This document shows positions 1,105 through 33,488 of a stretch of 64,000 nt of DNA, piece after piece. The notes below the pieces were generated by a model. That model did not search any database. It was not told the origin of the DNA and saw only the letters and a program-made list of their open reading frames with translations. Positions within the stretch are counted from its first letter, which is position 1. Each line of letters starts with the position of its first letter. The stretch lies in contig JAKUQS010000005.1 of NCBI GenBank assembly GCA_022451485.1, positions 1-64,000 on the forward strand, in the 5' to 3' direction. Source of the DNA: Gammaproteobacteria bacterium. Its GTDB lineage: Bacteria > Pseudomonadota > Gammaproteobacteria > Arenicellales > UBA868. The translations under genes and the position numbers were made by a program.

Positions 1105-2742
1105 TTAAGCCACCAGGCTAGGTGCTGCCCGAGTACCGGAGCCTCGTTGCGGCAGTCGGCTGAGGGTAAAACCGTGCTGGTAAGAAGCTTTGAGAATCAG
1201 GCCGCATTTCCAAAATGTCCCACCTGCTATGACTAAGAAACCCGCCGTGGCTAGCAACGCGGAGGTGTCCGCTGCGTGAAACCAAGCGGCCAACGCTAGC
1301 AAAACGGGTGCCAGATGTCCGACTATGAGTAATGGCCACGACATATTGTCGACTATTCGATTTGCGAGCGGTGGTCTGACTGCGCGATCCGCTCCATAGC
1401 GGTAGCCGAGCCACAAAATCATGTTCAGTACTGCGAGCGTTACCATGACTCCTGCTAGCTTCGACGGGTCAAGATAAAAGGTGCCGTCGTTAGAGACTAG
1501 GTTGGTTGATACTAACAGTAGCGTGAGACCAACGCCCTCAAACAAACCAGATACGACGATAAGCCAGGGAACTCGAGGTGTACGCCATGCGGGGATGCCT
1601 TTGGCACTATGAAGAATTCGTGCTTGGCATAAGAGGAAACAGGCGGCTGCAAAACCCGCGAGATGATACAGCCCGACCACAGGTTGGCTGATCTGGGTTG
1701 TCACCAGTACGGAGATGAGAAACACTCCGGCTGCATAAAGCTCACGGGTCATCCAGGACGTCTGGGGTCGCCACAACGCCCGCCAGGCGCGCCATCGACG
1801 TCCAAGTTTTAGCCAGACGAAGAACAAACCGGCCAACATCATGACGCCAGCAATCAGCTGTAGCTGATGGGTTGCCTGCATAGAAATCTGGCCGATGACG
1901 TAGGCGACCCACGCTGAGACGGCGAGCCCGCTGCCAAGGCCGCCAAGACACCAGTTCATGGTTGCTCGCCAGTCCCAGAAATTTTGTCGTTTGCCGACCA
2001 GTGGATTAGTCGGATCAGACTGATGTTTTTCGTCAAGATCGTCCGCGTCCGCGTCGCGTCCCGGTACGGTGGGGGTGGAATAAAGGTACTTGATTTGTGG
2101 GTCAGTACCCAGGTCCTCATTCAAACGTATCGTCGGTTGGTCGTGAACTAAAGTGGAAACATTGCTGGTTGGATTATTGAAGTCACCGAACGAAATAGCA
2201 TTGCTGATACAAGATGCGGCGCACGCAGGCATCACGTCAAAATCAACCTCGGGATCAAGTTTGCGAGAGGTTGCCTCGTCTACTTTGTCAACGCAAAAAG
2301 TACATTTCTGTGCAACCCCTTCGCGCTCTGGGTGCCGCGCGCTTTCCTCCTGTAGCGTTTCTGTGCCGTAGTACCATTGGTGCTCGTGGGCAATGGTGCG
2401 TGCGTCATAGGGGCAGGCAACTGCACAGGCAGCGCAGCCGATGCAGCTGTCATAGTTCATTGTGACGAGGCCGTCGTCTCTTTGTTGGGTAGCACCTGTC
2501 GGGCAGACCGGGACGCAAGGTGGTACTGCACAATGTTGGCAGCCAACGACCAGGAAAAACCGTTCCACATTGGGATATCGTCCCGTTTCAACATCGATCA
2601 CACTGCGCCATTGCACTCCAGGTTGCGTGTCGTTCCAGTGCTTGCAGGCCACAGTACAGGTTTGACAACCCACACATCGATTGACATCAACGACCATTCC
2701 CCAGCGTGGGGGAGTGGAACTTTCAGAAAGTCTATTGGTCAT
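1105..2742 (-). CDS. Fused ferredoxin-type FeS electron-transfer and membrane-anchor subunit (DmsB-DmsC / PadC-PadD-like)
   Basis: 545 residues in two parts. Residues about 13-200 are a four-cluster ferredoxin domain: CVGCQTCTVAC (from Cys23), CQHCAVPPCVPVCP, CIGCAACAVACPYDAR, and CTFC with a distant CAASC, together sixteen cluster cysteines. Residues about 255-535 hold roughly eight hydrophobic segments of the DmsC/NrfD type that would anchor the complex and pass electrons to quinone. In DMSO reductase and phenylacetyl-CoA:acceptor oxidoreductase these are normally separate proteins, so this is a natural fusion. Its ATG overlaps the stop of the catalytic subunit by four bases (ATGA), which points to translational coupling and a 1:1 complex. 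No Tat or Sec signal is visible. Confidence 0.9.
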   Translation of the reverse strand: MTNRLSESSTPPRWGMVVDVNRCVGCQTCTVACKHWNDTQPGVQWRSVIDVETGRYPNVERFFLVVGCQHCAVPPCVPVCPTGATQQRDDGLVTMNYDSCIGCAACAVACPYDARTIAHEHQWYYGTETLQEESARHPEREGVAQKCTFCVDKVDEATSRKLDPEVDFDVMPACAASCISNAISFGDFNNPTSNVSTLVHDQPTIRLNEDLGTDPQIKYLYSTPTVPGRDADADDLDEKHQSDPTNPLVGKRQNFWDWRATMNWCLGGLGSGLAVSAWVAYVIGQISMQATHQLQLIAGVMMLAGLFFVWLKLGRRWRAWRALWRPQTSWMTRELYAAGVFLISVLVTTQISQPVVGLYHLAGFAAACFLLCQARILHSAKGIPAWRTPRVPWLIVVSGLFEGVGLTLLLVSTNLVSNDGTFYLDPSKLAGVMVTLAVLNMILWLGYRYGADRAVRPPLANRIVDNMSWPLLIVGHLAPVLLALAAWFHAADTSALLATAGFLVIAGGTFWKCGLILKASYQHGFTLSRLPQRGSGTRAAPSLVA

Positions 2743-5522
2743 GTCTTGGTTGTGTGGGGCATTGGGTCAGGATGCGTCGCAAGATGTTGATCGGTCGGGT
2801 AAACGTTTACCCTGACCAGGTCAGCGCTGCTACCAGTGGAATCGGTTAGTTTGAGAGAGATATCAGTGACGCTGTTGATACTCGCCAGACCGAAATCGCG
2901 GGCTAATGGTGTTTTCCAGTGGTCAAACTGTCCAATCATTAAGATGGTGTCCGGCCGGATACCCTCTCGCAGGACCGCTCTACCTTGAGTGGTCCCAGTC
3001 ACTGATTTGATGATGACGGGATCTCCCTCGTTAATTGAAAGATCACGGGCTCGTGCGCGATTAATGATCACCCCGTCGTGGCCGGATAGATTCAGTGCGG
3101 CCTCGTGCATTAATGGAATGCCGACATTCGCGCCCCAAGAATACGGCATAGAGTGTGCAGTTAGCGCCCAGAAGGGATAGGTCTCGGGATCTTCGCCTAA
3201 GTCGCTTACGTGGTTTTTCCAGATATCGGAGAAAGATTGGTAAGTCGGCATGAACTCGTACTCCGCTAACTGGTCCTTCCACCAAGCCAAGCCAATCTCA
3301 CGAAGTCGGTGCTCGAGCTGTTTTCCATGACGCGTGAGTCGTTCTTGGTAGGGCATCTCAAAACGGAGTCCCTGGCGTTCCAAAGCCGGATATAGGTACC
3401 AGTCGAGTTCCTGGAATTCTCGAAGCATGTAGCCTTCACGACGAAACCATTCGAGGTCATGTACTTCTTTTCCATCACTCATATCCCAACTTACGGCTTT
3501 GCACATCGCATTCCAGATGTCATCGCCTTTCGGCATAGTTTCCGCATCGAGAGAAAAGTCATAACAGTTAGTTCGCGACAATCGACTGCCCGCCGCTCCG
3601 CGGTTAATGGCGTCAACATAGTCATCCAAGATGCCAGCTTCTCGCGCGAGGTGACTGGCAATGTCAGTCATATCCATCGTGTCATGGATTGGATCGACAG
3701 CTTTTTGCCTAATTGCCCAGCCATCGTGATGCCAATAATTTTCAACAAACTTAGTGCCGCCAATTCGAACCAGTTGTGTGCTTTCGAGATCCGTCGCCTC
3801 TGGTAGCAATATATCGGCAAAATGATTGGTTTCATCTTCGGTATAGGCAAAGGCCACAATGAAGGGAAACTCTGCGAGTCGAGTGGAGACTTCTGGTGCA
3901 TTCCACGAACTGATTGCCGGATTCGTTCGATAACAGAACCACAAATCGGGTGGCTGTGTTCTTGGCCAGTTTTTAGGCGCGGATTTCTGGAACAACCAAG
4001 GCAGATGCGCCGGCCCGAGGGCTGGTGACCAGGGTGAGTCACACGCGAGAGGAACCAGCATTTTGTAGGCATTACGAACCTTTGGTTCCCGCTCCCATTC
4101 GTTGGCACTGGTTGGGTTAAAGGAATGATGCATGAAACCATCTTCACCAGGTAACACGGAGCCTACTCTGCTGGTGGCCGGGCGCACCAGCTTGACAGTT
4201 GTACCCAATGTGCCCCCCGGTACTTCTAGTGCCCCGACCAGGGTTGCGAGTAACGTGCGCGCCCAGCAGCAGTGGTATCCGCCCCAGCCATTGTTGACCC
4301 CCTTGCCTAACATCACAGCAACGGGTCTGTAGGGCATCGTATGCCCTTGGATATCGATTGTTTCACCAATCTTCGCCTGTGATACATATTCGTCTGCAAT
4401 GCGTCGTATCGTTTCTGCTGGCACCTCACATTCGGTTTCCGCCCAGTCGGCATCGTACGGACGCATGTGCTCGATTAGACATTGGAAGGCAGGCTGTGTT
4501 CGGCATTCGTTGTGTTGAATAGTTTCGTTGTCAGCACCGCGCTCAAAGCCAGCCGCCTGGAACGTACCTGTCAGTGCAACCTCACCTACCTCACTATCGA
4601 ATGGTTTAGCGCTATCAGTAGACAGATCCCACACCTGAGGTTTACCGCTTTCTGCGTCGCGTAGAAACCAACCATTGGGACCGACCAGGTAGGGAGAATT
4701 GGTCATCTTTTTAAGGTGTGGTAAGTCGCAGGTGGTCTCGAAGGGTTGTTCGATGAGCATTCGATGTAATAACGCGTATAGAAACGCGGCATCGGTTTTA
4801 GGTTTGATCGGGACCCATTCTGCTGACACGGCGCCGGTTACCGAAAGATGCGGTTCAACCTGTACTCGTTTTACGCCTCGCGCTCGGGCATCGGCGCCTC
4901 GCCAAACCCCAATAACGCCGCCAGTCGATTCAACGTTGTTACCACAATTGATGATGTAATTTACCCGGGGTGTGTCGGGGGAGACTGTGAAGGCGCGGTG
5001 CCACAGTTCACCGTAGAGATGTTCAGAGTGATAGCACTTGACCCCTTGGCCAGCGCCATAGCTCTGGTCAATGGGTCCCCAGGCCGCCATGAAGGCGGGG
5101 AAAGAACCCATATATTGCACTGGCGTACCACCACCGCCAGTAGTAGACGCAACACGGGGCATGCCCTCTTCGTTAACCAGGCCGCGTTCTCGAATTTCAC
5201 GTAGTTTCTCTCCAACAATGTGAAAAGCTTCTCGCCAACTGATCGGAACAAATCGTGGATCCTCATTGCGTCCTTTGTTCGGATTGGTTCGTTTCATCGG
5301 TTGGCGAATACGGTGTGGGTTGTACGTTTTCTGAATCAGTCCGTATGCTTTTACACAAACCCTTCCACCACCCGGGTGTTCCTCAGCGATATCAAAATTT
5401 GAGACAATCCGTTTAGCGACTCCGTCTTCCACTTCAACCCGCATCAGATCCGGCCCTGCGACGCACTGATAACAATAGAGTGGGACAGATTGTTTGTTGC
5501 CGTCGTTCACATCATCTTTCAT
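2739..5522 (-). CDS. Molybdopterin oxidoreductase catalytic subunit, phenylacetyl-CoA:acceptor oxidoreductase (PadB)-like
   Basis: 927 residues, typical of DMSO-reductase-family Mo/W-bisMGD enzymes. The N-terminal cluster region is CYQC at 17-20 and Cys56 in GGGRVCVKAYG; the third usual ligand (C-x2-C-x3-C) falls on Pro24, so the 4Fe-4S site is incomplete or uses another ligand. The segment around VKCYHSEHLYGELWH lies where the metal ligand is expected, but I cannot name the ligand. There is no Tat signal, so the active site should face the cytoplasm, which suits a CoA-ester substrate. The ligase and two thioesterases in the operon support oxidation of an acyl- or aryl-acetyl-CoA. PadB is the best analogy by domain and context; other cytoplasmic molybdoenzymes remain possible. 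Confidence 0.75.
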   Translation of the reverse strand: MKDDVNDGNKQSVPLYCYQCVAGPDLMRVEVEDGVAKRIVSNFDIAEEHPGGGRVCVKAYGLIQKTYNPHRIRQPMKRTNPNKGRNEDPRFVPISWREAFHIVGEKLREIRERGLVNEEGMPRVASTTGGGGTPVQYMGSFPAFMAAWGPIDQSYGAGQGVKCYHSEHLYGELWHRAFTVSPDTPRVNYIINCGNNVESTGGVIGVWRGADARARGVKRVQVEPHLSVTGAVSAEWVPIKPKTDAAFLYALLHRMLIEQPFETTCDLPHLKKMTNSPYLVGPNGWFLRDAESGKPQVWDLSTDSAKPFDSEVGEVALTGTFQAAGFERGADNETIQHNECRTQPAFQCLIEHMRPYDADWAETECEVPAETIRRIADEYVSQAKIGETIDIQGHTMPYRPVAVMLGKGVNNGWGGYHCCWARTLLATLVGALEVPGGTLGTTVKLVRPATSRVGSVLPGEDGFMHHSFNPTSANEWEREPKVRNAYKMLVPLACDSPWSPALGPAHLPWLFQKSAPKNWPRTQPPDLWFCYRTNPAISSWNAPEVSTRLAEFPFIVAFAYTEDETNHFADILLPEATDLESTQLVRIGGTKFVENYWHHDGWAIRQKAVDPIHDTMDMTDIASHLAREAGILDDYVDAINRGAAGSRLSRTNCYDFSLDAETMPKGDDIWNAMCKAVSWDMSDGKEVHDLEWFRREGYMLREFQELDWYLYPALERQGLRFEMPYQERLTRHGKQLEHRLREIGLAWWKDQLAEYEFMPTYQSFSDIWKNHVSDLGEDPETYPFWALTAHSMPYSWGANVGIPLMHEAALNLSGHDGVIINRARARDLSINEGDPVIIKSVTGTTQGRAVLREGIRPDTILMIGQFDHWKTPLARDFGLASINSVTDISLKLTDSTGSSADLVRVNVYPTDQHLATHPDPMPHTTKT

Positions 5523-5548
5523 TTTTCAATCGCTTCGAGTTTTATTGC

Positions 5549-5956
5549 TTATAGTTCACTGGCGCGGGCCGCCTTCTTGCGTAATCGTCCAGCCTGCTTT
5601 TCCTTGTTGATGATAAAGCGTACGTGTTGTCCGCGTCCGACTTGTTCAATCGCGTCGTGTACGTCTACATCAAAGCTGATTCGTGATCCTTCAACACCGG
5701 TTACCGTTACGGTCACATCCACCCACATACCAAACAGGGTTGGCGCCAGATGATCGACACGGATGTGTGCGCCAACTGAATCCTCATCACCTTCAGCATG
5801 ATCCATGATGAGATCACGACAGCTATATTCCATGTCACTCACCATATTGGGTGTTGAGTAGACCCTCAGTTCATCACCCATAAAGTCGATAGTTCGTTCC
5901 TTGTCAATCTGTATCCGTTTTTTAAGACTGGCGCCCGGTTCTAGGGAAGTTTTCAT
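5549..5956 (-). CDS. FlK-family (fluoroacetyl-CoA thioesterase-like) hotdog thioesterase
   Basis: 135 residues, the normal FlK length. The motif YSTPNMVSDME gives Thr35 and Glu43, and VDHLAPT gives His69; the spacings (8 and 26 residues) equal those of the Thr42-Glu50-His76 triad known from FlK of Streptomyces cattleya. The protein should therefore be an active acyl-CoA thioesterase. It sits 26 bases upstream of the molybdoenzyme gene in the same - operon and 66 bases after the acyl-CoA ligase, so it probably hydrolyses the substrate or product CoA ester of that complex. FlK relatives act on several small acyl-CoAs, so fluoroacetate is not implied. The C-terminus is rich in Lys and Arg. Confidence 0.85.
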   Translation of the reverse strand: MKTSLEPGASLKKRIQIDKERTIDFMGDELRVYSTPNMVSDMEYSCRDLIMDHAEGDEDSVGAHIRVDHLAPTLFGMWVDVTVTVTGVEGSRISFDVDVHDAIEQVGRGQHVRFIINKEKQAGRLRKKAARASEL

Positions 5957-6022
5957 GGTGTGACATCCTCGTTTGCTAGATTTCTTATGTAATTGCTGAT
6001 TTGTGCCCTAAGCCTCAGGTTT

Positions 6023-7570
6023 TTAACTGTTATGTGCCGAAAATATGCGACGCAATTCGTTCTTCAGAATTTTGTTCATGGCGCTCTTGGGTAGTTCGTC
6101 GACAAATTGGTATAGCCGGGGAATCTTATAGCCGCCAATACGATCGCGGCAGTGCGCGATGAGCATCGCATCAGTTAATACGGCGCCCGGGGTGGTCACA
6201 ACGACTGCTAACAGCGCTTCGCCATAGGTTTCGTCGGGCACGCCGACGACTGCGCACTCGTGCACGTCTGGATGCTGGTATAAGCACGCTTCGACTTCGG
6301 AGGAGTAAACATTTTCTCCCCCAGTAATGATCATGTCCTTCTTGCGATCTAGAAGAAAAAGGTAGCCTTCATTATTCATGCGCCCGATGTCTCCGGTATG
6401 TAACCATCCCTCGCGGAAGCTAACCCGATTTTCATCAGGTCGATTCAGGTAACCTTTTGAAACATTGGCCCCGCGGACAATAATTTCACCAGCCGCATCG
6501 ATGGGTACATCAACAGCGTTGTCGTCGACGATGCGCATTTCAACGCCTGGTATAGGGCGCCCGACGCTTTGTAACAGCGAGGGATTTTCTCCCGCCATCG
6601 CTTCTTGGTGTTCGGCCATAGGCAGGATTGTCAGGATGGGTGAGGTTTCGGTTAATCCATAGGCCTGGATAATCTCAACGTCGCGAAATCCGCTCAGTGC
6701 TTTTTGTATCCACTCGGCTGCCATTGGTGATGAGCCATATAACAATTGTCGAAATGATGACAGATCCGTGCGAGCGAGCGCCGTATCCTGCAAAGTCATG
6801 ATGATCATAGTGGGTGTCAACATGGCGTGTGTTGCACGAAGGCTCTCTATCGTGGAGAGCGCAATTTCCGGCGTGAATTGAGGCAGATACGCATGTGCCC
6901 CACCAGCGATTGTGTGTGTTGTCCCCAACAGATCTGCTGAGTGAAACATAGGTGGAATATGAAGGTAAATATCGCTGTGATGGGGCCGCACCAGGAAAGA
7001 GAGTTGAAAGGCGTTCGCAACAATATTCCTGTGGCTCAGCCTGACGCCTTTGGATTGACCGGTTGTACCACCGGTGTAAAGGAGCAGCGCATCATCATCT
7101 TCACTTGCCTCACGCATGGGTGCTGGTCGAGCCGCTTGGAGTTCCTCTTCATAATCAGAGGCGCCTTGCTGCTTTCCCCCAGACGGTATCCATACGATGT
7201 GATCGGACAAATGATCTAAACAGCCGTCGGCAACAAAGTCATCAAAAAATTCTTCGACTGCTATCAGTCCACAATTCGCATCTTTGAAGATTGCTTTGAT
7301 TTCCGACGCCGCCAGTCGATAATTGACGGGTACCGGGATTGCGCCCAGCCAATACCCTGCGTGCATGAGTTCTGCCTGACGGAAGGAATTACGTGAAAGG
7401 ATGCCAAAACGATCGCCGCGGTTGATGCCGCGATTGCTCAGGAGTCCGGCACAGTGTGCTATCCGATTACTAAACTCAGACCATGTAAACTGTCTCTCAA
7501 CATCGACAATGGCCGGGCGTTCTCCGTAAAGGCGAATGGTGCGGGCCAGCATAGCGGTCAAAGTTAACAT
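6023..7570 (-). CDS. AMP-forming acyl-CoA synthetase (class I adenylate-forming ligase)
   Basis: 515 residues covering the whole ANL fold. The P-loop is LLYTGGTTGQSKGVRLSH, the A5 region IIQAYGLTETSP, the A7-A8 region WLHTGDIGRMNNEGYLFLLD followed by RKKDMIITGGENVYSSEVE, and the C-terminal PKSAMNKILKNELRR carries the adenylation lysine. It activates a carboxylic acid with ATP to the acyl-CoA. It is the first gene of the - operon that leads to the FlK thioesterase and the molybdoenzyme, so its product is likely to be their substrate. Chain length or aromaticity cannot be read from the sequence. Start ATG at 7570; the divergent neighbour begins 77 bases away. Confidence 0.9.
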   Translation of the reverse strand: MLTLTAMLARTIRLYGERPAIVDVERQFTWSEFSNRIAHCAGLLSNRGINRGDRFGILSRNSFRQAELMHAGYWLGAIPVPVNYRLAASEIKAIFKDANCGLIAVEEFFDDFVADGCLDHLSDHIVWIPSGGKQQGASDYEEELQAARPAPMREASEDDDALLLYTGGTTGQSKGVRLSHRNIVANAFQLSFLVRPHHSDIYLHIPPMFHSADLLGTTHTIAGGAHAYLPQFTPEIALSTIESLRATHAMLTPTMIIMTLQDTALARTDLSSFRQLLYGSSPMAAEWIQKALSGFRDVEIIQAYGLTETSPILTILPMAEHQEAMAGENPSLLQSVGRPIPGVEMRIVDDNAVDVPIDAAGEIIVRGANVSKGYLNRPDENRVSFREGWLHTGDIGRMNNEGYLFLLDRKKDMIITGGENVYSSEVEACLYQHPDVHECAVVGVPDETYGEALLAVVVTTPGAVLTDAMLIAHCRDRIGGYKIPRLYQFVDELPKSAMNKILKNELRRIFSAHNS

Positions 7571-8731: not shown

Positions 8732-10261
8732 TTGGACAAAGACACACAAGAGAACCTATTGTTCACGGGCGAAAACTTTCTCGATAGTCTGCGGGATGGC
8801 CGTGAGATTTGGCTCGATGGCGAGCGGGTAAAGGATGTCACGCGCCACGTTGCGTTCCGAAATTCCGCACGCAATATTGCGCGCTTGTATGATGCGCTGC
8901 ACGATCCGGAAACAGCGTCACTGATGACGACCACTGATCGTTCAGGGATTCTGACCCATCGCTTTTTCACACCCAGCTACAGTGCCGACGACTTATTGGC
9001 GTCTAGGGATGCAATTGCCCACTGGCAGAGACTCACGCACGGATGGATGGGGCGCACGCCAGATTACAAGGCGGCATTTATGGCACAACTTGCTGAAGGG
9101 CATGACTTTTACGAGCCGTTTGGTGCTAATGCATTGGCCTGGTACAACCGCTGCGCCAGTAAAGCATTGTTCATGAACCACGTCCTTGTCGACCCACCGG
9201 TGGATAGGGACAGACCGCATCACGAAGGCACTGACATTTATGTCAATGTCACGGGTGAAAATGATCGGGGTATCATCGTGAGCGGAGCCAAAATGGCGGC
9301 AACTGGCTCCGCGCTGACACACGCGACTTTTGTGGCCCCGAATAGCGGAACAGCGGCGCGCATGGAGGAAGGTAAGGACGAGGCGTTTGCACTGGTTTTC
9401 ATCGTCGACATGGATACGCCTGGATTAAAATTGATCAGTCGACCTTCTTACGAAAAAAATGCCAACAGTCCTTTCGATGCACCATTGTCGAGTCGATTTG
9501 ATGAAAATGATGCGGTTTTGATCTTTGATGATGTTTTTATCCCGTGGGAAAACGTGTTGGTGTATCGTGACGTTGAAAAGGCAAAAGGATTTTACGCGGC
9601 CTCTGGATTTTTCAATCGTTTTAACCTGCAGGCTAGTACGCGATTAGCGGTTAAGCTTGAATTTGCGGCTGGGTTACTCATTAAGGGCGTAGAGGCGACC
9701 GGCACGGCATCATTTCGAGGTGTGCAAAGCCAGGTTGGTGAGCTGATTGGAATGAGTAATCTGGTTTGGGCGCTGACTACGGCGCTCGCGTTGGACCCGG
9801 AAGCGGGCGTTGGCAACTCTGTTGTGCCCAAGTTACAGACTGCAGCTGCCGCCCGAATGTACATGACGTCGGCGTGGTCAAAAGTAAGGGAGATTTTTGA
9901 GACGATACTGGCTGGAGCACCCATCGTCACCGTATCCTCCAACATGGATTTGAAAGTTCCGGAACTCAGTCCAGTCATCGAGCGTTATTTCCGCGGTACT
10001 GGACTACCTGCAAAGGAAAGAATCAAATTATTTAAGTTGATTTGGGATGCGTTGTACTCGGAATTCGCCGGCCGCCATGCTTTGTATGAGCGGAACTATG
10101 CTGGCAATGTGGAGCAACAGCGCCTCGATATTTTGCGCTGGTCAGATGCCCGGGGGGACAGTGATCGCTACAAAGCGGCAGTCGATGCGTGTATGTCCGA
10201 CTATGACGTGGAAGGTTGGCGGGTTCCCTATTTAGCTGGCATCGATGAGAGTGTTGCTTGA
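8732..10261 (+). CDS. 4-hydroxyphenylacetate 3-hydroxylase family (HpaB-like) flavin monooxygenase, large component
   Basis: 509 residues, the usual HpaB length. The N-terminal FTGENFLDSLRDGREIW and the block PHHEGTDIYVNVTGEND with IIVSGAKMAATGSALTH are family hallmarks; the enzyme hydroxylates a phenolic ring using FADH2 supplied by a separate flavin reductase. The start is TTG with AGGA about eight bases upstream; no ATG lies in frame until about residue 65, which would delete conserved sequence, so TTG is preferred. No reductase (HpaC) is adjacent; the only flavin reductase seen is at 63632. It follows the dehydratase gene on the + strand and converges on a luciferase-like gene. The exact phenol is unknown. 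Confidence 0.88.
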   Translation: MDKDTQENLLFTGENFLDSLRDGREIWLDGERVKDVTRHVAFRNSARNIARLYDALHDPETASLMTTTDRSGILTHRFFTPSYSADDLLASRDAIAHWQRLTHGWMGRTPDYKAAFMAQLAEGHDFYEPFGANALAWYNRCASKALFMNHVLVDPPVDRDRPHHEGTDIYVNVTGENDRGIIVSGAKMAATGSALTHATFVAPNSGTAARMEEGKDEAFALVFIVDMDTPGLKLISRPSYEKNANSPFDAPLSSRFDENDAVLIFDDVFIPWENVLVYRDVEKAKGFYAASGFFNRFNLQASTRLAVKLEFAAGLLIKGVEATGTASFRGVQSQVGELIGMSNLVWALTTALALDPEAGVGNSVVPKLQTAAAARMYMTSAWSKVREIFETILAGAPIVTVSSNMDLKVPELSPVIERYFRGTGLPAKERIKLFKLIWDALYSEFAGRHALYERNYAGNVEQQRLDILRWSDARGDSDRYKAAVDACMSDYDVEGWRVPYLAGIDESVA

Positions 10262-11462: not shown

Positions 11463-12542
11463 TTATTCCACTGTAAACGGCGGTGCTTTCCCAATCAGAT
11501 TCTTCTGTTTAAGCCAAGGAGAAACCAGGCCAAATAGTCCGCCACGAAAGAACTTCATCACCACGATGACGAGCGTGGCAAACAGAAGCATGTGGGCGTA
11601 TGGACTGATATCACGCATAAATTCCCACAGTATGACGAGCAGCAGTGCGCCGATCACTGGGCCGGTTAGAGTGCCTAGACCTCCAACGATGGTCATGGCC
11701 AGAATTAAACCCATCTCAAGAATCATTAGCATTTTGGGGTCAAGAACCTGTACAAAAAGGTGTGCGTAGAGAGCCCCTGCGAAACCGGCGAATGCGCTGG
11801 AGATAACGAACGCTCGGACTTTCCACTTGACCAGATCAACCCCCATCACTTGAGCTACGTCTTCATCTTCACGCATCGCTTTTAGATACAACCCCTTTTC
11901 GGAGTTGACCAAACGATAGAGCACGACAATCGTAATCACGGTTAGTGCCAGCATCATGATGTAACCGAGAACATGATTGGGTAATCCATCGTCCGTCACC
12001 CACAGGTAGGGAATTCGAAGCCCGAGCGAGCCGCGGGTATAATCATGTTCGATCTGCAGAGTGAGGCGCACGGTTTCCGAGAAGCCGAGCGTCATTAGTG
12101 CTAGGTATGGGCCGCGAGTTTTAAGGCACATACGTCCAAGGCCCCACCCGATGCCAGCGGCGACAAGACCGCCGGCAAAGACACCGATAACGGGATGAAC
12201 GCCTGCACTAAAATCCCGCGAGTAGCCTTCGGCGCAGACTCCACCAAAGACAAAACCTCCGGCATTAAGTAGGAGGTCTAGTTGGACCAAACTAGCACAC
12301 ACGTGGTGACCAAGAAAGCCAGCGCTAAGTAACCCTGTGGTGTACGCACCAATACCAGCAAACGCCGCATGAGCGAAAGATAAAACGCCAGCATAGCCGA
12401 GCAGCAGGTTCCAGGATGATGCGAGAACAATGAAGTACAACACGGAAGCTGCAACTCGCAGTGCGTATGATTCGAAGATGTAGGGGACAATCAGCGCAAC
12501 AGCTAGTGTCAGTAACAATACGCATTTTTCGAAGCGTGTCAT
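11463..12542 (-). CDS. Branched-chain amino acid-type ABC transporter permease LivM
   Basis: 359 residues, polytopic inner-membrane protein with the LivM signature YAGVLSFAHAAFAGIGAYTT (about 50-69), a central GLRIPYLW segment and the EAA-like loop near GGLGTLTGPVIGALLLV. Compared with common LivM proteins it has an extra stretch at about 78-116 containing two cysteines (VCASL and GVCAEG), probably an enlarged loop. It forms the channel with LivH and is energised by the LivG/LivF ATPases encoded upstream. The start ATG overlaps the livH stop by four bases. The imported substrate could be an amino acid, amide or other small polar compound. Confidence 0.9.
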   Translation of the reverse strand: MTRFEKCVLLLTLAVALIVPYIFESYALRVAASVLYFIVLASSWNLLLGYAGVLSFAHAAFAGIGAYTTGLLSAGFLGHHVCASLVQLDLLLNAGGFVFGGVCAEGYSRDFSAGVHPVIGVFAGGLVAAGIGWGLGRMCLKTRGPYLALMTLGFSETVRLTLQIEHDYTRGSLGLRIPYLWVTDDGLPNHVLGYIMMLALTVITIVVLYRLVNSEKGLYLKAMREDEDVAQVMGVDLVKWKVRAFVISSAFAGFAGALYAHLFVQVLDPKMLMILEMGLILAMTIVGGLGTLTGPVIGALLLVILWEFMRDISPYAHMLLFATLVIVVMKFFRGGLFGLVSPWLKQKNLIGKAPPFTVE

Positions 12543-13450
12543 GCGCGCCGTTCCTTCTGTCCAAACAAGCCATGCGGCCGGAACAGCAGGACGCCAATGA
12601 GGACGAGAAACGCAAATACGTCGCGATAGGCAACTGACAGGTAGACGGACCCAAGGCTTTCGACCAAGCCTAGAATAATTGCTGCGATCACAGCACCCGG
12701 TATTGAGCCCATGCCCCCAAGGACAATGATGACGAATGCTTTGATAACCGGAATCTGGCCTACATCCGGGTAGACGAGAAATATTGGTGCCATCGCGGCG
12801 CCGGCTGCGCCTGCTAGCAGGCCTGCCAAGGCCATGGCGATGATGTTCATCCGCACGGTATTGATGCCCACAATTGTTGAGCCAACACGATTTTGCGCTG
12901 TCGCCATTAGTGCGCGACCTGTCCAGGTGCCGTAAATAAAGTACAGCGTTATTGCGATCAGCAGCGCGGATGTTCCTGCTGCGAAAAGTCGGTCACCAGC
13001 TAGGTATAGGTCACCGAAGATATGTTTTGATCCGTCCCAGAATGAACCGGGTGTCATCTCGTAAGGGCCCACGGTGGTCAACGCGCCGTATTGAAGGAAG
13101 AGCGACAGCCCGAACGTAAGAATGATCGCGTATTCTTCGGGTCGGTCCATGCGCACTGTGTAGACAGGGCGCAAAAGTCCGCGTTCAACCGCTATGCCAA
13201 ATATGGCTACGGCGATCATCGCTAGCGGTAGCCCGACGATGGTTGGTAGCGACAGCGGGATAGAGAAAATTGTGACGGCACCCGCAGTCAATGCATACAA
13301 AGTGTAACCACCGATCATATAGAACTCACCATGCGAAAAGTTAACGACTCGCATGATGCTGAAGACGATAGTTAGGCCAAGGGCGATCAGGGCATAAATC
13401 AGGCCAAAAATGACGCCGTTAACCAGCTGCGATAGTAGGTAATAGTCCAT
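12539..13450 (-). CDS. Branched-chain amino acid-type ABC transporter permease LivH
   Basis: 303 residues with about eight membrane segments. The N-terminal half has GLTIVFSIMRVVNFSHGEFY (about 26-45), the diagnostic LivH motif, and the C-terminal part has FVIIVLGGMGSIPGAVIAA, the ATPase-contact loop. It pairs with LivM (four-base ATGA overlap). Upstream on the - strand lies the solute-binding-protein gene, separated by 70 bases that contain a strong hairpin. The gene order G-F-binding protein-H-M differs from the classical order in E. coli but is common for HAAT transporters. Confidence 0.92.
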   Translation of the reverse strand: MDYYLLSQLVNGVIFGLIYALIALGLTIVFSIMRVVNFSHGEFYMIGGYTLYALTAGAVTIFSIPLSLPTIVGLPLAMIAVAIFGIAVERGLLRPVYTVRMDRPEEYAIILTFGLSLFLQYGALTTVGPYEMTPGSFWDGSKHIFGDLYLAGDRLFAAGTSALLIAITLYFIYGTWTGRALMATAQNRVGSTIVGINTVRMNIIAMALAGLLAGAAGAAMAPIFLVYPDVGQIPVIKAFVIIVLGGMGSIPGAVIAAIILGLVESLGSVYLSVAYRDVFAFLVLIGVLLFRPHGLFGQKERRA

Positions 13451-13473
13451 TGATTAGATCGTGATGCTGGAGC

Positions 13474-13516
13474 ATCTAGACCAGGGGTGGGCTTTCGTCC
13501 ACCCCTGGTCAGATGT
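13474..13516 (-). promoter_or_regulatory. Strong intercistronic hairpin between binding-protein gene and livH
   Basis: A perfect 12-bp inverted repeat (GACCAGGGGTGG at 13479-13490, CCACCCCTGGTC at 13499-13510) with an 8-base loop; after one bulged A (13478) the stem gains about five more pairs (CATCT/AGATG). It begins a few bases after the binding-protein stop. No T-run follows on the transcribed (-) strand, so it is more likely a partial attenuator or an mRNA-stabilising structure, as seen after many periplasmic binding-protein genes, than a full terminator. Confidence 0.7.
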
Positions 13517-13520
13517 CAGG

Positions 13521-14747
13521 TTACGGGCGTGCAATCCCCGCAGTGGCAAATTGCTTGGGAAACAGTACTGCTGCGTCCCCTGCCGACTGGCCTACCTTTG
13601 TGTACTGGAAGATAAACGTCGGTACAGCTTTCCACTGGTGATGCCAGACGCCGTCTTCCTGGGAGAACTCAATATCGCCTCGAGTACCGGCAATTTTCAG
13701 TTCCTGAAGGGCTTTAATGATAGCTTTGCTGTCAGTTGAGCCAGCGTTCTTGATCGCGGTCAGTAGCGAGATCATCGCATCGTATCCCTGCAACGGCAGG
13801 TAGTTTGGTTGGCGGTCAAATTTGTCAATGTAGCGTTTTTTTATTTTTTCACCGAGATCCGTCAGTTTGACACTTGGGCTGTACGGGCAGGACATCAAGA
13901 CGTAATTCCCCGCATCTTTGACTGCTTCCCAGAAAACTTTGTCGTTCTGTGCCGTACACGTCCCATCGAGGTAGAGCGTCTCTGCAGTCGGAGCAAAACG
14001 GATCTCATGAGCTTGCTTGAGAATCAAGAAGCCACCCGGTTGGGTTACGGCGACGATGAGAACTTCAGGCTTTACCTGCGTCTTGTATTTCAACAGGATT
14101 GGTACAAAATCCTTAGATGTTTTCTCGACCACTTCATATTGGAAGTCAATATCCGCGTTTAACTTTTTGATCGCATTTTCGATGTTTTTCGCAATTCCGA
14201 TGCCGTAGTCCGTATCTTCAACCAGGCTTGCGGCCTTCTTGATCCCGTTAGCAGCCATTACGGCGACCATATTTTCAGCCAATTTCGACGAGTAGACGCT
14301 CGTGCGAAAGACTTCATCGTAGCCTGCATCAGTTAGTGCATCTGACCAGCATGATCCAATGACAAATGGAATGCCGTGTTGATGAAATACTTCGATCTCT
14401 GCTTTGCACACCGAGGAGTGGTACTCGCCCGCTGCAGCAACTACTTTGTCTTTGGTAATGAGTTTTTCTACAACGGTGGCGCCTGTCGGGGGACGGCCTT
14501 GTGTATCTTCAACAATTAATTCCACCTGTTTTCCCAGAACGCCCCCAGCAGCGTTAACATCGGCCACCGCCCATTCCAATCCAAGAACGAGTTCCGGGCC
14601 TTGTTGGTAACTGCCTGGTGACGACAAGGGTGCCATGCCACCGATTTTGATGGTGTCGCCCGCGTGGGTTGCACCGAAGGGTAACGCTAGTGTTGCCACC
14701 AGTGCGATCCCAGATAGGAACTTCCTTTTAGGTACTGCAGTCATCAT
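13521..14747 (-). CDS. Periplasmic solute-binding protein of a LIV/HAAT-type ABC transporter
   Basis: 408 residues, type 1 periplasmic-binding fold. Residues about 1-29 form a Sec signal (KRKFLSG, a hydrophobic run, then ATHAG with likely cleavage after Ala). The mature start DTIKIGGMAPLSSPGSYQQG and the motif AAAGEYHSSVCKAEIEVFHQ are typical of the family. A very good AGGAGG lies about six bases before the ATG pair (14747 and 14744 are both possible). It binds the substrate outside the inner membrane and delivers it to LivH-LivM. The sequence is diverged from true Leu/Ile/Val-binding proteins, and the surrounding catabolic genes suggest an amide, hydantoin or amino-acid-like ligand. Confidence 0.9.
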   Translation of the reverse strand: MMTAVPKRKFLSGIALVATLALPFGATHAGDTIKIGGMAPLSSPGSYQQGPELVLGLEWAVADVNAAGGVLGKQVELIVEDTQGRPPTGATVVEKLITKDKVVAAAGEYHSSVCKAEIEVFHQHGIPFVIGSCWSDALTDAGYDEVFRTSVYSSKLAENMVAVMAANGIKKAASLVEDTDYGIGIAKNIENAIKKLNADIDFQYEVVEKTSKDFVPILLKYKTQVKPEVLIVAVTQPGGFLILKQAHEIRFAPTAETLYLDGTCTAQNDKVFWEAVKDAGNYVLMSCPYSPSVKLTDLGEKIKKRYIDKFDRQPNYLPLQGYDAMISLLTAIKNAGSTDSKAIIKALQELKIAGTRGDIEFSQEDGVWHHQWKAVPTFIFQYTKVGQSAGDAAVLFPKQFATAGIARP

Positions 14748-14825
14748 CTTATCCTCCTGGTTATGATTAACATCAGTGTCGAACTTGTATCAAATAACGG
14801 TTGTGTTGAGTTTTGACAGCATTTT

Positions 14826-15539
14826 TTAGATTTGGAGCCAGTTCTTAATCATGTCATGCAGGTCGGTTTCAAACTCCGCTTTTGTGCCGCTCACCTTATT
14901 TTGACCGACTTCTAACACATAGACGAAATCACCGATCCGGATAGCTTCTCGTACATTCTGATCAACGAGAAGAATGGTTAGGCCATCTTGTTTGAGACGT
15001 TCGATAGTGTCGTAAACTTCCTTTGCAATAATCGGTGCTAGACCGACTGTAGGCTCATCGCAGATCAATATTTGGGGTTTGATCATCATCCCCCGAGCGA
15101 TTTCAAGAATTTTCTGCATGCCACCGGACAAGTCTCCAGCTTTCGAGTTCCGTCGCTCGCGCATTAATGGAAAAAGTTCGTAAACACGGTCTAAGGCGCT
15201 ATCTATCCGGTTTTTGTCGTTACGAAATGTCCAGGCGCCGAGGTGAATGTTTTGTTCCACTGTTAGGTGGGGGAAAACTGTACGTTCTTGGGGCAGGTAA
15301 CAAATTCCTAGCCCTGCCATGCTGTGACTGGGTCGACCCGTAAGATCATTTCCGTCCCAAAGCACTTGCCCTGATTTGGGCGTGAGGAAGCCACAAATCA
15401 CTCGCATTAGGGTGGATTTTCCAGAACCATTGGGCCCAATGACTGAGGTAATGTGTTTGTCCTGGACCTCGACCGATACATCTTGGAGGATGTCTATCTC
15501 GTCCACGTAACCGGCAACAATGTTGTTTGCGGTCAGCAT
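14826..15539 (-). CDS. ABC transporter ATP-binding protein LivF
   Basis: 237 residues. Walker A GPNGSGKST (about 35-43), Q-loop near CYLPQERTVFPHLTVEQN, signature LSGGMQ and Walker B ILICDEPTVGLAP are all present, so the protein should hydrolyse ATP. The short length and C-terminal region are of the LivF kind. The upstream livG stop lies two bases away; 78 bases separate it from the binding-protein gene downstream. Cytoplasmic, bound to the LivH/LivM permeases. Confidence 0.93.
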   Translation of the reverse strand: MLTANNIVAGYVDEIDILQDVSVEVQDKHITSVIGPNGSGKSTLMRVICGFLTPKSGQVLWDGNDLTGRPSHSMAGLGICYLPQERTVFPHLTVEQNIHLGAWTFRNDKNRIDSALDRVYELFPLMRERRNSKAGDLSGGMQKILEIARGMMIKPQILICDEPTVGLAPIIAKEVYDTIERLKQDGLTILLVDQNVREAIRIGDFVYVLEVGQNKVSGTKAEFETDLHDMIKNWLQI

Positions 15540-15541
15540 AG

Positions 15542-16312
15542 TCAGACTCCGAGATAAGCCTCGATGACACCCGGGTCTTCACGAACTTCGTCGGGTGTAC
15601 CGTCTGCGATCAGCTGACCGTTAGCAAGAACAATAACCCGTGTCGCGAGTCCCATAATGGTTGGTAGGTCATGGCTTACCACAATGAAGTCAATGCCGCG
15701 GCCACGTAAATCCCCAATGCGATTGAGTATGCGCTCGACTAAGAGCGGATGGATTCCCCCAAAAGGTTCATCCAATAGCATCAGCCGCGGTTTAAGCATG
15801 AGGGCACGGGCAAATTGCAGCAGCATACGTTGGCCGCCGGAAAGGTCGGCAGCTTGTTCATGAGCGAAGCCGTCAATGTCGAGAAATTCCAAGTATTCTC
15901 TTGCTCGGCGAATTAGCGTAATTCGGTCTTCACTCTGAGAATCGCGGACGGTAAAGCCGGGTGCCAGCATGTTCTCTAGGGCAGTCATCTGCGGAAAGAT
16001 TCGGGCGATCTGAAACGTGCGGGCAATGCCGGCACGGGCAATCACGTGCGGTGTCGACTTTTCGATCGATGCTCCTTCAAAGTGGATTGTCCCTTGGTTG
16101 AGCGGATATATGCCGCTCGTTGCGTTGAGTAACGTGGTTTTGCCAGAACCATTAGGTCCGATGAGTCCGAGCAATTGGCCCTTGGTCATGCTAAAGGAAA
16201 CCGAGTTCAGAGCCTGGTTGCCACCAAAGGCAATACTCGCGTTGGCTACCTTAAAAACATCTGGGGCGGTAACGGAGGTTCCCCCTTTAATAGCTGTCGA
16301 AGCTTCCTTCAA
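15542..16312 (-). CDS. ABC transporter ATP-binding protein LivG
   Basis: 256 residues with Walker A GPNGSGKTT, the LivG-type RAGIARTFQIARIFPQMTALEN segment (shown here in part), signature LSGGQ, Walker B LMLLDEPFGGIHP and the H-switch VSHDLPTIMG. The LivG extension after Walker A distinguishes it from LivF. The start is TTG at 16312: upstream in frame there is no ATG or GTG before a stop, and the next internal Met lies inside the nucleotide-binding fold. First gene of the - strand transporter unit, 169 bases from the divergent hyuA. A plausible promoter with overlapping dyad lies at 16348-16379. Confidence 0.92.
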   Translation of the reverse strand: MKEASTAIKGGTSVTAPDVFKVANASIAFGGNQALNSVSFSMTKGQLLGLIGPNGSGKTTLLNATSGIYPLNQGTIHFEGASIEKSTPHVIARAGIARTFQIARIFPQMTALENMLAPGFTVRDSQSEDRITLIRRAREYLEFLDIDGFAHEQAADLSGGQRMLLQFARALMLKPRLMLLDEPFGGIHPLLVERILNRIGDLRGRGIDFIVVSHDLPTIMGLATRVIVLANGQLIADGTPDEVREDPGVIEAYLGV

Positions 16313-16481: not shown

Positions 16482-18569
16482 ATGCCGTCATCGTACCGTC
16501 TTGCCGTTGACGTTGGAGGTACTTTTACCGACTTTGCCCTCTTGAACGAGGGTTCGGGGGAGATTCACATTGCCAAATCTCTTACGACACCTGACGACCC
16601 ATCCGTGGGTGTGTTAACGGGCATCACCGCATTCAATCAGGCTGTGGCCGGTCATGTGGAATCCACTAAGCGAATTGCGCATGCAACTACACTGGTGGCT
16701 AATGCTGTAATCGAAAGGAAGGGCGCGCTCACGGCGTTACTGACAACGGCAGGGTTTCGTGATGTATTGGAACTTCGACGTCACGTCCGAGTGACGACGT
16801 ATGAGTTGTGGGCTGATCCACCAGAGCCCCTTGTGCCACGGTGGTTACGGTTGCCTGTCAATGAACGGGTGTTCTCTGATGGAACGATATTGAAAGAAGT
16901 TGAGTCGTCAGATATTGCGGAAGTCGCTAAGGTGTTGCGGAATGAAGGTGTGACTTCGGTCGCGGTTTCATTTTTGCACTCGTACGCAAATGCTGAGAAT
17001 GAGCGAAAAGTGGTCGAATTGTTGGAAACGTTGGTGCCAAATATCGCAGTGACACGTTCATCGGAAGTCTTACCGCAAATTAAGGAGTACGAGCGAACCA
17101 GCACGACAGTGGTCAATGCGTATGTTAAACCGCTGACGCAAAGATATCTAACCAACTTGGAAAGGGGTCTTGTCGAATCAGGTTACAACGCACCTCTTAA
17201 TATCATGTTGTCGAATGGTGGTTTAGGTTCCATCAAAACGGCCGCCGATTTTCCTATTCGGTTGATTGAGTCGGGGCCGGTTGCGGGTGCCATCGTTGGG
17301 CGAGAGCTTGCGACCTTGCTGGGGCTTTCGGAAGTATTGTCATTTGATATGGGTGGAACGACTGCCAAGGCTTGCCTGATTCGAAATCAAACGTTACCAA
17401 TTACTGATGAACTTGAGGTCGCTCGATCAAAACGCTTCACCAAATCGAGTGGTTTTCCGGTCGGTGTCCCAGCTGCCAATATGATTGAAATTGGTGCCGG
17501 TGGCGGGAGTATCGCCCGAGTCAACCAGATGGGCGTTGTACAGGTCGGTCCGGAAAGTGCGGGAGCAGATCCAGGTCCTATCTGTTATGGGCATGGGGGA
17601 TTAGGGGCCACGGTAACGGATGCGGATCTGGTACTCGGGTACCTCAACCCAGACCATTTTGCTGGCGGGTCTATAGCGCTTGATTTGGCTGAGGCATCGG
17701 CGGGGATAACCGAGCAGATTGCGGGTAAACAGGGACGGACACTGGTGGAAGCGGCGTGGACGATTCATGACGTGATTAACGAGACGATGGCAACAGCGGT
17801 TCGCATGCACGTGACCGAACGCGGTGGTAACCCTGACACTGCAACAATGGTTGCCTTTGGGGGCGCAGGCCCCGTTCATGCATGTAATTTGGCGAGAAAG
17901 TTGCGTATGGAGCGTTTTATCATACCGCTGCGCGCGGGCGTCTTATCTGCGTTGGGGTTGCTTATCGCGCCACCGGCCTACGATATCGTGAAGACCTATA
18001 AATCACCACTCGACACGCTTGATTGGAAAGATGTCTTGAGTCGCATGAAAAAAATGGAAGAGGAAATCGGGCTCTCACTGGATGGTATCGACACGGTTGG
18101 CAAGCGTTCTTACTGGCGGGAAGTCGATGTTGGCTATATTGGGCAGAGCTACCAGGTGACTGTCGGTATTGAGGATCAATTTGATGGTGCGATGCTGCAG
18201 CAGCACTTTGCCGCATTGTATCGGGAGAAATATGGATACTTTTATGCTGATGTCCCTGCGGAAATCGTTAATCTGCGTGTTCGCGGTGAGATTGTTCAGA
18301 TGGGCTTTCGCCTAAAACCGCTTGAAACGCCGGACGCAGGCGCCGTTGCTCCGTCAAGTGGGGTTCGTGAAGCCTATTCTGCTTCTGAGCGTAGGATGAT
18401 GCCGCATCAGGTTTATCAAAGAACAATGCTTGTTCCCGGGATGCGATTGATTGGTCCCGCAATTGTGGAGGAGGCGACTTCAACGACGGTGATCGATCAG
18501 GGATGGACACTGGATGTCGACAGTTTTGGGTCGCTGTCTGTACGCCGCACAGGAGTGACTGATCGATGA
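16482..18569 (+). CDS. hyuA: Hydantoinase/oxoprolinase subunit A (HyuA-type), copy 1
   Basis: 695 residues, the normal size of HyuA / N-methylhydantoinase A. The start VDVGGTFTDFALL (about 8-20) is the phosphate-1 loop of the actin-like ATPase fold, EYERTSTTVVNAYV marks the Hydant_A_N domain boundary, and the second domain carries SFDMGGTTAKAC, GAGGGSIARV and FGGAGPVHAC. Relatives open a cyclic amide (5-oxoproline, N-methylhydantoin) with ATP, or carboxylate acetone/acetophenone, together with HyuB. AAAGGA lies eight bases before the ATG. It overlaps hyuB by four bases and is divergent from the ABC transporter, which may bring in its substrate. Confidence 0.9.
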   Translation: MPSSYRLAVDVGGTFTDFALLNEGSGEIHIAKSLTTPDDPSVGVLTGITAFNQAVAGHVESTKRIAHATTLVANAVIERKGALTALLTTAGFRDVLELRRHVRVTTYELWADPPEPLVPRWLRLPVNERVFSDGTILKEVESSDIAEVAKVLRNEGVTSVAVSFLHSYANAENERKVVELLETLVPNIAVTRSSEVLPQIKEYERTSTTVVNAYVKPLTQRYLTNLERGLVESGYNAPLNIMLSNGGLGSIKTAADFPIRLIESGPVAGAIVGRELATLLGLSEVLSFDMGGTTAKACLIRNQTLPITDELEVARSKRFTKSSGFPVGVPAANMIEIGAGGGSIARVNQMGVVQVGPESAGADPGPICYGHGGLGATVTDADLVLGYLNPDHFAGGSIALDLAEASAGITEQIAGKQGRTLVEAAWTIHDVINETMATAVRMHVTERGGNPDTATMVAFGGAGPVHACNLARKLRMERFIIPLRAGVLSALGLLIAPPAYDIVKTYKSPLDTLDWKDVLSRMKKMEEEIGLSLDGIDTVGKRSYWREVDVGYIGQSYQVTVGIEDQFDGAMLQQHFAALYREKYGYFYADVPAEIVNLRVRGEIVQMGFRLKPLETPDAGAVAPSSGVREAYSASERRMMPHQVYQRTMLVPGMRLIGPAIVEEATSTTVIDQGWTLDVDSFGSLSVRRTGVTDR

Positions 18570-25573: not shown

Positions 25574-25592
25574 TGCCATCAGGGAATAAATT

Positions 25593-32336: not shown

Positions 32337-32957
32337 CTAAATGATCTTCGGGTTAACATGTAACGCGCGACGGAATTTGGCTTTTGTTTCGACGGCATCG
32401 AAATTGCGGTTATATTTCGCTGGCGCCCCATCACTGACGCGTAATACGACAAAAGAGGGCCCGTTTCGACTGCGTAGGAGGCGAGCCGCCTGTGCAAACT
32501 CTGTTTCTGATCGGACGGTTAAGGTGGCCTCGATACCCGAGCCTTGTGCGACCTTCGCAAGGTCAACGGTGTGATGAGTGTGACTTTTTTGATTGCCGGT
32601 TTCTCCGTAGCGACCGTTATCTATGCACAGCATCGTGAGATTGTGTGGACGCATGTGGCCTATGGTTGCTAGTGTGCCCACGTTCATCAGTAATTCACCG
32701 TCACCACTCACTACCAGGACCTGTCTCTCTGGCTGCGCGAGTGCAAGTCCAAGGCCCATTGATGCGGCCGCACCCATGGCGCCACCAAGCAGATAGGCAT
32801 TTGGAGTCTCTTCCGTCAGATAACCTATATCCCTGGCGGCACCCGATAGGCCACTGATAATCAAGAAGTCTGACGGATCGCCGATCAATGCCGGTACCGC
32901 CGATCGCCGGTCAAGGAGCAAGTCTTCATTTGTATGCGTGTCTCGATCTTTTCGCAT
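32337..32957 (-). CDS. ThDP-dependent decarboxylase, beta subunit (sulfopyruvate/phosphonopyruvate decarboxylase ComE-like)
   Basis: 206 residues corresponding to the ThDP pyrophosphate-binding domain. The motif VSGDGELLMNVGTLATIGHM (about 84-103) with CIDNGRYGETG is the GDG...N Mg-ThDP site. With the preceding 174-residue gene it reconstitutes a full ThDP decarboxylase in two chains, as in archaeal sulfopyruvate decarboxylase ComDE and some phosphonopyruvate decarboxylases. It should remove CO2 from a 2-oxo acid with a polar tail. Six bases separate it from the alpha gene. No sulfonate- or phosphonate-specific genes are adjacent, so the substrate is open. Confidence 0.85.
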   Translation of the reverse strand: MRKDRDTHTNEDLLLDRRSAVPALIGDPSDFLIISGLSGAARDIGYLTEETPNAYLLGGAMGAAASMGLGLALAQPERQVLVVSGDGELLMNVGTLATIGHMRPHNLTMLCIDNGRYGETGNQKSHTHHTVDLAKVAQGSGIEATLTVRSETEFAQAARLLRSRNGPSFVVLRVSDGAPAKYNRNFDAVETKAKFRRALHVNPKII

Positions 32958-32963
32958 CGTGGG

Positions 32964-33488
32964 TTAAAAGTTTTTGGCTCCGATTAGACGCTGGGACAAA
33001 AGGATGGCTACCGATTGATCCGACCGAAAGGCCATAGCAGTCGCCGCATCGCTCGTTGGAACGACTTCGCTGGCTGTCTCAATTCGATAGCAGTGTGTGC
33101 CCATAGCTTCCAGACAGGGTCGAGCACCTTGTCCCATAGGAAACTGCCATGGATTCTGTTCTCCAAAATCACCTCTCATACTGACAATCGTTAGGAAAGG
33201 AAATCTGCCGATTGCAATCAACGACAGCATATTGATGCAATTACCGACACCGCTACTTTGCATCAGCAGAACGCCACGTTTGTCTCCCAAGTGGGCTCCG
33301 GCCAGAAGGCCGACGCCTTCCTCCTCGGTTGTCAGCGGAACCGAAATCACTTCTGGATCTTGCGCCGAGTGCTCGATCAGCGTTGCGTGGCCCGCATCGG
33401 GAACATAAGCGAAGAGTGTGACTCCGTTTCTTCGCAGGCTCTCATACAACTGGTCCTGCCACAGCGGCGTTTTCGTCTCGGAAGACAT
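32964..33488 (-). CDS. ThDP-dependent decarboxylase, alpha subunit (ComD-like)
   Basis: 174 residues, the PYR domain of a two-chain ThDP decarboxylase. FAYVPDAGHATLIEH, PLTTEEEGVGLLAGAHLGDK (one of Glu55-57 should be the cofactor-activating Glu) and LMQSSGVGNCINML match sulfopyruvate decarboxylase alpha chains. It is placed directly upstream of the beta chain and 70 bases after the class II aldolase gene. The aldolase could supply or consume the aldehyde; this is inference from order only. Confidence 0.85.
   Translation of the reverse strand: MSSETKTPLWQDQLYESLRRNGVTLFAYVPDAGHATLIEHSAQDPEVISVPLTTEEEGVGLLAGAHLGDKRGVLLMQSSGVGNCINMLSLIAIGRFPFLTIVSMRGDFGEQNPWQFPMGQGARPCLEAMGTHCYRIETASEVVPTSDAATAMAFRSDQSVAILLSQRLIGAKNF

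Follow-up and report, generated by a model that had tools for sequence, protein, structure and literature searches.

A PadB-family operon with a probable role in arylacetic acid alpha-oxidation in a gammaproteobacterium encoding the Box pathway

We analyzed a 64,000-nucleotide stretch of a Gammaproteobacteria bacterium genome (lineage UBA868; contig JAKUQS010000005.1, positions 1 to 64,000 of the forward strand), hereafter the window. A run of five minus-strand genes, from 7570 to 605, encodes in this order a FadD-like acyl-coenzyme A (CoA) ligase, a FlK-type thioesterase, the catalytic subunit of a molybdenum/tungsten (Mo/W) enzyme, an iron–sulfur (FeS) subunit fused to a membrane anchor, and a 4HBT-family thioesterase (table 1). 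The ligase and FlK genes are 66 bp apart and the FlK and Mo-subunit genes 26 bp; the Mo-subunit gene overlaps the FeS/anchor gene by 4 bp, and 59 bp separate the latter from the 4HBT gene. As these gaps are short, the five genes likely form a single transcription unit. A gene caller based on codon usage recovered the identical five genes. A first-pass annotation, made from the sequence alone, had placed an operon at 2739–7570: the five genes exist in the order that it gave, but this range spans only the ligase, FlK, and Mo-subunit genes. The ligase, the FlK protein with an intact triad, the Mo/W enzyme devoid of a twin-arginine translocation (Tat) signal, and the membrane subunit that it had recognized were all found by domain search and alignment.

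Table 1. Genes and sequence motifs of the PadB-family operon (window positions; aa, amino acids; bisPGD, bis-pyranopterin guanine dinucleotide).
Feature	Position	Strand	Domain or basis
Acyl-CoA ligase, AMP-forming, FadD-like, orthologue group Lig19, 515 aa	6023..7570	-	PF00501+PF13193
FlK-type hotdog thioesterase, 135 aa	5549..5956	-	PF22636, 111.6 bits
FlK triad, codons T35, E43, H69	5750..5854	-	Alignment to Thr/Glu/His of solved FlK structures
Catalytic Mo/W-bisPGD subunit, PadB family, 927 aa, Tat-less	2739..5522	-	PF00384+PF01568
N-terminal FeS site, codons 17-56, C17-x2-C20-x4-D25-x30-C56	5355..5474	-	Alignment
Codons 162-176, KCYHSEHLYGELWHR, holding C163	4995..5039	-	C163 identical in 89/89 family members
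FeS (PadC-like) + NrfD/DmsC-like anchor (PadD-like) fusion, 545 aa	1105..2742	-	Fer4, NrfD (PF03916)
4HBT-family thioesterase, 146 aa	605..1045	-	PF03061

The catalytic subunit begins with MKDDVNDGNKQSVPLYCYQC, without a twin-arginine signal. It is 56–57% identical over its full length (~900 residues) to PadB of Thauera aminoaromatica S2, and because this PadB belongs to a verified pad cluster, the window protein is, as judged from its sequence, a member of the PadB family. This homology supports well the alpha-oxidation of a CoA ester with transfer of electrons to an FeS/membrane anchor, as proposed in the first-pass annotation. The alternative that the same annotation had set against its proposal, membership in a non-CoA family such as the thiosulfate or arsenite enzymes, was not what we found. 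The top NCBIfam match is PhsA, at 144.9 bits for a cut-off of 694, and the scores are also far from the cut-offs for ArrA (95.6 vs. 1600 bits), EbdA (18 vs. 2000 bits), and the type II dimethyl sulfoxide (DMSO) reductases (TIGR03479; 76.5 vs. 984.75 bits); the protein is also far below the curated cut-offs of DmsA and further non-CoA families. Its AlphaFold model (predicted local distance difference test score of 86) shows a complete DMSO-reductase fold, the nearest folds being those of ArrA (Z 25.1), PsrA (Z 24.1), and acetylene hydratase (Z 23.8) at 16–21% identity. For acetylene hydratase, the identity is 16% and the profile match 45.7 bits. The polysulfide/thiosulfate reductase PsrABC and the arsenate reductase ArrAB share with the window enzyme the superfamily fold and NrfD-type or FeS partners, but are ~20% identical to it and have no CoA genes. 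A Tat-exported respiratory reductase was rejected, as there is no signal and the linkage to FlK and ligase genes speaks against it.

Among 89 aligned family members, residues C17, C20, P24, D25, and C56 of the N-terminal FeS site never vary in sequences that cover the respective column. Relatives in the DMSO-reductase superfamily generally use four cysteines at this site, and the PadB family has an aspartate there. The first FeS cluster of the whole family may be ligated by three cysteines and one aspartate. From its position, C163 is the likely ligand of the metal.

A scan of 84,980 genomes, from which we kept the best 80 relatives of the Mo subunit (93% to ~56% identical), allowed us to place the protein within its family. 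As a reference we used the pad cluster of T. aminoaromatica S2 (L087), reached via a named Thauera locus. It has the gene order padBCDEFGHIJ, and its products exceed the profile cut-offs for PadE (326/300 bits), PadF (162/150), PadG (764/700), PadH (735/475), PadI (839/700), and PadJ, which is of the PaaK type (690/646). A PadI search of a random sample of the phylum returned no true Pad cluster. In an outgroup-free IQ-TREE phylogeny of 87 family proteins, 33 proteins including that of the window (clade A) are split from the branch of Thauera PadB (clade B) with 100/100 support, a statement that concerns a bipartition of an unrooted tree. The window subunit therefore falls outside the clade that holds the verified PadB, and the likeness to PadBCD put forward in the first-pass annotation holds for the family by homology, with the window enzyme in a distinct clade adjacent to the bona fide PadB proteins rather than among them. 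Distant plasmid-borne homologs from Sporomusa (30% identity), Cereibacter, and Azospirillum were tried as outgroup, but their branches saturate and the A/B root cannot be set. The Sporomusa termitida homolog, carried by plasmid pSPTER (L018:7869-10628) alongside NrfD, FeS, and TorD genes and a sodium:solute symporter gene, has a third cysteine in its FeS motif about where the PadB family has the aspartate.

The two clades are told apart by ten alignment positions and by their neighborhoods. A PaaK-type ligase is encoded near 25 of 49 clade-B genes and 2 of 30 clade-A genes, PadE-I near 7/49 and 0/30, and HcrABC-like proteins near 13/49 and 1/30, respectively. The loci of Ramlibacter, Rubrivivax, and other Burkholderiales that contain 4-hydroxybenzoyl-CoA reductase-like genes have the FlK-PadB-PadC core in common with the window operon, but they belong to clade B and have a PaaK-type ligase, a separate PadD, a Liv transporter, and HcrABC-like genes. 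Copies of both clades coexist in at least four genomes (L097; L044 and L070; L046 and L085; L009 and L014), which suggests that clade-A and clade-B enzymes have different jobs.

The fused partner subunit contains 16 cysteines in four groups, corresponding to four [4Fe-4S] motifs, and six strongly hydrophobic segments. This fusion of PadC to the anchor is found in all 18 intact clade-A loci, whereas in clade B the two are separate in 38 of 44 loci and fused in six (Fisher 7e-11). Three clade-A loci that form a long separate branch (L045, L047, and L048) have no PadC/PadD gene beside the Mo gene, immediately 3' of it. In L122 (8462-14011), the gene that comes immediately after a clade-A PadB/PadCD pair encodes a Rieske ring-hydroxylating oxygenase.

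The closest solved structures to the operon ligase are FadD5 and feruloyl-CoA synthetase, and it is not of the PaaK type. Seven clade-A PadB genes have an ortholog (45–59% identity) no more than 1 kb upstream, and an eighth has one 6.9 kb away; among the genes of the 80 PadB loci, none at this similarity was found near a clade-B gene. In clade A, a FadD-like ligase often takes the place of PaaK. A ligase of this type also lies upstream of the copies L120 and L121, from organisms of the window's own family. The FlK domain scores far above its cut-off of 27 bits and matches a solved FlK at E 5e-15, and the triad is unchanged across 47 FlK proteins of PadB loci. PadB is immediately preceded by an FlK gene of the same orientation in 13 of the 25 clade-A loci and 26 of the 45 clade-B loci whose flanks are long enough (39/70 for both clades pooled). 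With the fluoroacetyl-CoA thioesterase FlK of Streptomyces cattleya, the window protein shares the Pfam domain and the Thr/Glu/His triad, but it is only distantly related in sequence, and FlK-type genes are here kept beside PadB-type enzymes. Because this linkage is conserved, its substrate is likely a 2-oxoacyl-CoA rather than fluoroacetyl-CoA. The namesake enzyme hydrolyzes an acyl-CoA that is electron-poor at its alpha position, and a thioesterase of this type would be a natural candidate for the hydrolysis of arylglyoxylyl-CoA. The second thioesterase, which the first-pass annotation had also included in the operon, is present and probably cotranscribed. Its closest solved relatives are 4-hydroxybenzoyl-CoA thioesterases and it has kept the Asp motif HCDPSG, but it has no homolog among the genes of the 80 PadB loci and was ruled out as a core member of the operon.

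IorAB enzymes catalyze the oxidative decarboxylation of aryl 2-oxo acids, and IorAB-type genes were found near eight PadB genes of the scan. In the closest complete relatives of the operon (L022 and L025), IorA, IorB, ligase, FlK, Mo-subunit, and FeS/anchor genes form a single same-strand run. The genome of the window, a metagenome-assembled genome (MAG) of 3.14 Mb, encodes an IorA that shares 63% identity with the L022 protein and has IorB next to it. IorAB may act after the Mo enzyme, from arylglyoxylate to aroyl-CoA, or before it; both fit arylacetyl-CoA chemistry. The same genome encodes BoxB (852 bits for a cut-off of 499) and BoxC (883/712), as well as a paa cluster; its PaaA, PaaC, and PaaK exceed curated cut-offs, and its PaaB, PaaD, and PaaE are assigned by gene order and sequence. 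Searches with single families found no benzoyl-CoA reductase subunit C and no match to PadI at E 1e-60 in this genome, and its four PF00384 proteins (that of the operon and three that we read as formate dehydrogenase, BisC-like, and NuoG) include neither Nar nor Nap.

We then compared genomes that carry family members with other Pseudomonadota. With the reservation that most are MAGs, that related genomes are not independent, and that the list of loci was capped at 80, BoxB exceeded its cut-off in 40 of 46 PadB-family genomes versus 34 of 397 others (Fisher p ~5e-30), and benzoyl-CoA reductase was present in 26/46 versus 2/397 (p ~3e-27), the two background genomes being the only ones there that carry a PadB-family gene. 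These enrichments are an association and not a proof. Among the kept loci, the reductase was found in 7 of 21 clade-A-only and 16 of 22 clade-B-only genomes (p 0.015), and BoxB was over its cut-off in 19 of the 21 clade-A-only genomes.

Compared with PadBCD of Thauera, Azoarcus, and Aromatoleum, the window system also combines a Tat-less PadB-family Mo subunit with a four-cluster FeS subunit, a membrane anchor, and a CoA ligase in the neighborhood, and the CxxC-x4-D-x30-C motif and C163 region are the same. It differs by its separate clade, the fusion of PadC and PadD, and the lack of linked PadEFGHI genes. A FadD-like ligase is found in the operon in place of the PaaK-type PadJ, the PaaK of the genome being encoded on another contig, and the genome has the oxygen-dependent Box and paa pathways with no benzoyl-CoA reductase found.

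We propose, with a probability of roughly 0.7, that the operon serves the alpha-oxidation of an arylacetic acid, by which a Box-type organism would turn an arylacetyl-CoA into a 2-oxo acid. The ligase would activate the arylacetic acid to arylacetyl-CoA. The cytoplasmic PadB-type subunit would then turn the alpha-CH2 into a keto group, a four-electron oxidation in which the oxygen would come from water, and the electrons might reach the quinone pool via its own FeS site and then the four in the fused subunit. FlK would cleave the electron-poor 2-oxoacyl-CoA to arylglyoxylate. The IorAB-type oxidoreductase, whose genes are in another part of the genome, might oxidatively decarboxylate this acid to an aroyl-CoA feeding the oxygen-dependent Box pathway. 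The known Pad route similarly runs via phenylglyoxylyl-CoA and its subsequent hydrolysis (PMC9765128, PMC5109826). Of this scheme, the sequence itself shows the membership in the family, the operon, the conserved motifs, the linked genes, and the genomic setting; we infer the substrate, the direction of the reaction, the quinone acceptor, the roles of FlK and IorAB, and operation under oxygen.

Several observations weigh against this proposal. To our knowledge, there is no biochemistry for any clade-A enzyme. FlK is not essential everywhere, since roughly every second locus is without it, and in the Thauera pad cluster FlK does not adjoin padB. PadE-I are missing from every clade-A neighborhood seen, and the associations with Box and the reductase reflect lifestyle as much as pathway. 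Absences in the window genome are weak evidence because it is a MAG with 92.7% completeness and 5.95% contamination. Its IorAB genes lie on another contig than the operon, and IorAB could equally work upstream, from arylpyruvate to arylacetyl-CoA, a step for which an IorAB-type enzyme is described in Aromatoleum (PMC9765128).

As to the substrate, the strong association with benzoyl-CoA pathways favors phenylacetyl-CoA or a close analog. The operon might be an isofunctional PadBCD for phenylacetyl-CoA in which the ligase was exchanged and the anchor fused, serving for example at low oxygen. We regard this as a possibility of less than even weight: the degree of identity to bona fide PadB agrees with it and the BoxB and reductase association suggests benzoyl-CoA as the product, but the clade is separate with 100/100 support, ten positions distinguish the two clades, and the genomes that retain a copy of each kind point to different jobs. 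PaaK and the paa epoxidase cluster would already cover phenylacetate in the window genome, although Aromatoleum too has the pad and paa routes together (PMC9765128). What casts doubt on phenylacetyl-CoA is that the genome seems equipped to activate and epoxidize phenylacetate through PaaK and the paa genes, that the operon brings a further ligase, and that some genomes contain both clades; a new substrate, as suggested in the first-pass annotation, is plausible.

Such a substrate might be a substituted arylacetate, for example 4-hydroxyphenylacetate or indoleacetate, with the 4HBT thioesterase hydrolyzing the aroyl-CoA formed. This reading, which we also hold only tentatively, would account for a FadD-like ligase instead of PaaK, for the resemblance of the second thioesterase to 4-hydroxybenzoyl-CoA thioesterases, and for an HpaB-family monooxygenase gene (8732-10261, plus strand) 1.2 kb past the ligase. 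However, the HpaB-like protein scores 550 bits, under the equivalog cut-off of 885; the 4HBT, HpaB, and pyridoxal phosphate (PLP) enzymes have no homolog near any other PadB gene; and the association with Box favors benzoyl-CoA itself. Alpha-oxidation of a nonaromatic acyl-CoA, fatty or short chain, is improbable: the ligase is FadD-like and sequence does not reveal the substrate, but nearly all PadB-family genomes are associated with aromatic CoA pathways, and the loci are linked to IorAB or 4-hydroxybenzoyl-CoA reductase-like genes. A respiratory reductase of thiosulfate, polysulfide, arsenate, or S/N-oxides adjoining CoA genes by chance, as the PhsA match and the ArrA and PsrA folds might suggest, is largely refuted by the low PhsA score, the identity to PadB, and the conserved linkage to FlK and ligase genes.

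The publications that we consulted place the alpha-oxidation of phenylacetyl-CoA in anaerobic metabolism, and we found no report of aerobic alpha-oxidation of arylacetates in the open-licence literature. The chemistry of our arylacetate proposal is familiar; the enzyme clade and its genome setting were not found described. Since it falls on a separate PadB-family branch that has partner genes of its own, and since the benzoyl-CoA pathway detected in the genome requires oxygen, the operon probably represents a version of the arylacetic acid alpha-oxidation route not described so far. At somewhat less than even odds, oxygen-respiring bacteria would use this sister-clade Mo enzyme, whose first FeS cluster may have three-Cys/one-Asp ligation, with a dedicated FlK 2-oxoacyl-CoA hydrolase to supply aroyl-CoA to Box without a benzoyl-CoA reductase. 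If so, this would be a second bacterial way to use arylacetates besides Paa epoxidation, in which the side chain is respired first and the ring opened after. Clade-A genomes mostly have Box and less often the anaerobic reductase. The FlK-like thioesterases beside these Mo enzymes would gain a concrete role in the hydrolysis of arylglyoxylyl-CoA.

Among the other genes of the window, the neighboring HpaB-like, PLP, and luciferase-like monooxygenase (LLM) genes were rejected as members of the system, having no conserved linkage to PadB loci. The contig that holds the paa cluster bears two further HpaB-like genes (L128:1731-4985). Clade-B loci often include a Liv transporter; that of the window (11463-16312) is not orthologous to them (binding protein ~25–30% identical) and was likewise rejected. 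A thiamine diphosphate enzyme gene (44613-46286, minus strand) scores 430 bits for a benzoylformate decarboxylase cut-off of 493, and its best solved structures are all benzoylformate decarboxylases. Benzoylformate is phenylglyoxylate, which the route of the operon would presumably yield, and this gene, 39 kb from the operon, is only a lead for a further outlet for arylglyoxylate. Two hydantoinase-type HyuA/HyuB pairs (16482-20224 and 23540-27248, plus strand) lie within 11 kb in a region dense in catabolic genes. Finally, alpha and beta subunits resembling sulfopyruvate/phosphonopyruvate decarboxylase, both under the curated cut-offs, are encoded at 32340-33488 on the minus strand.

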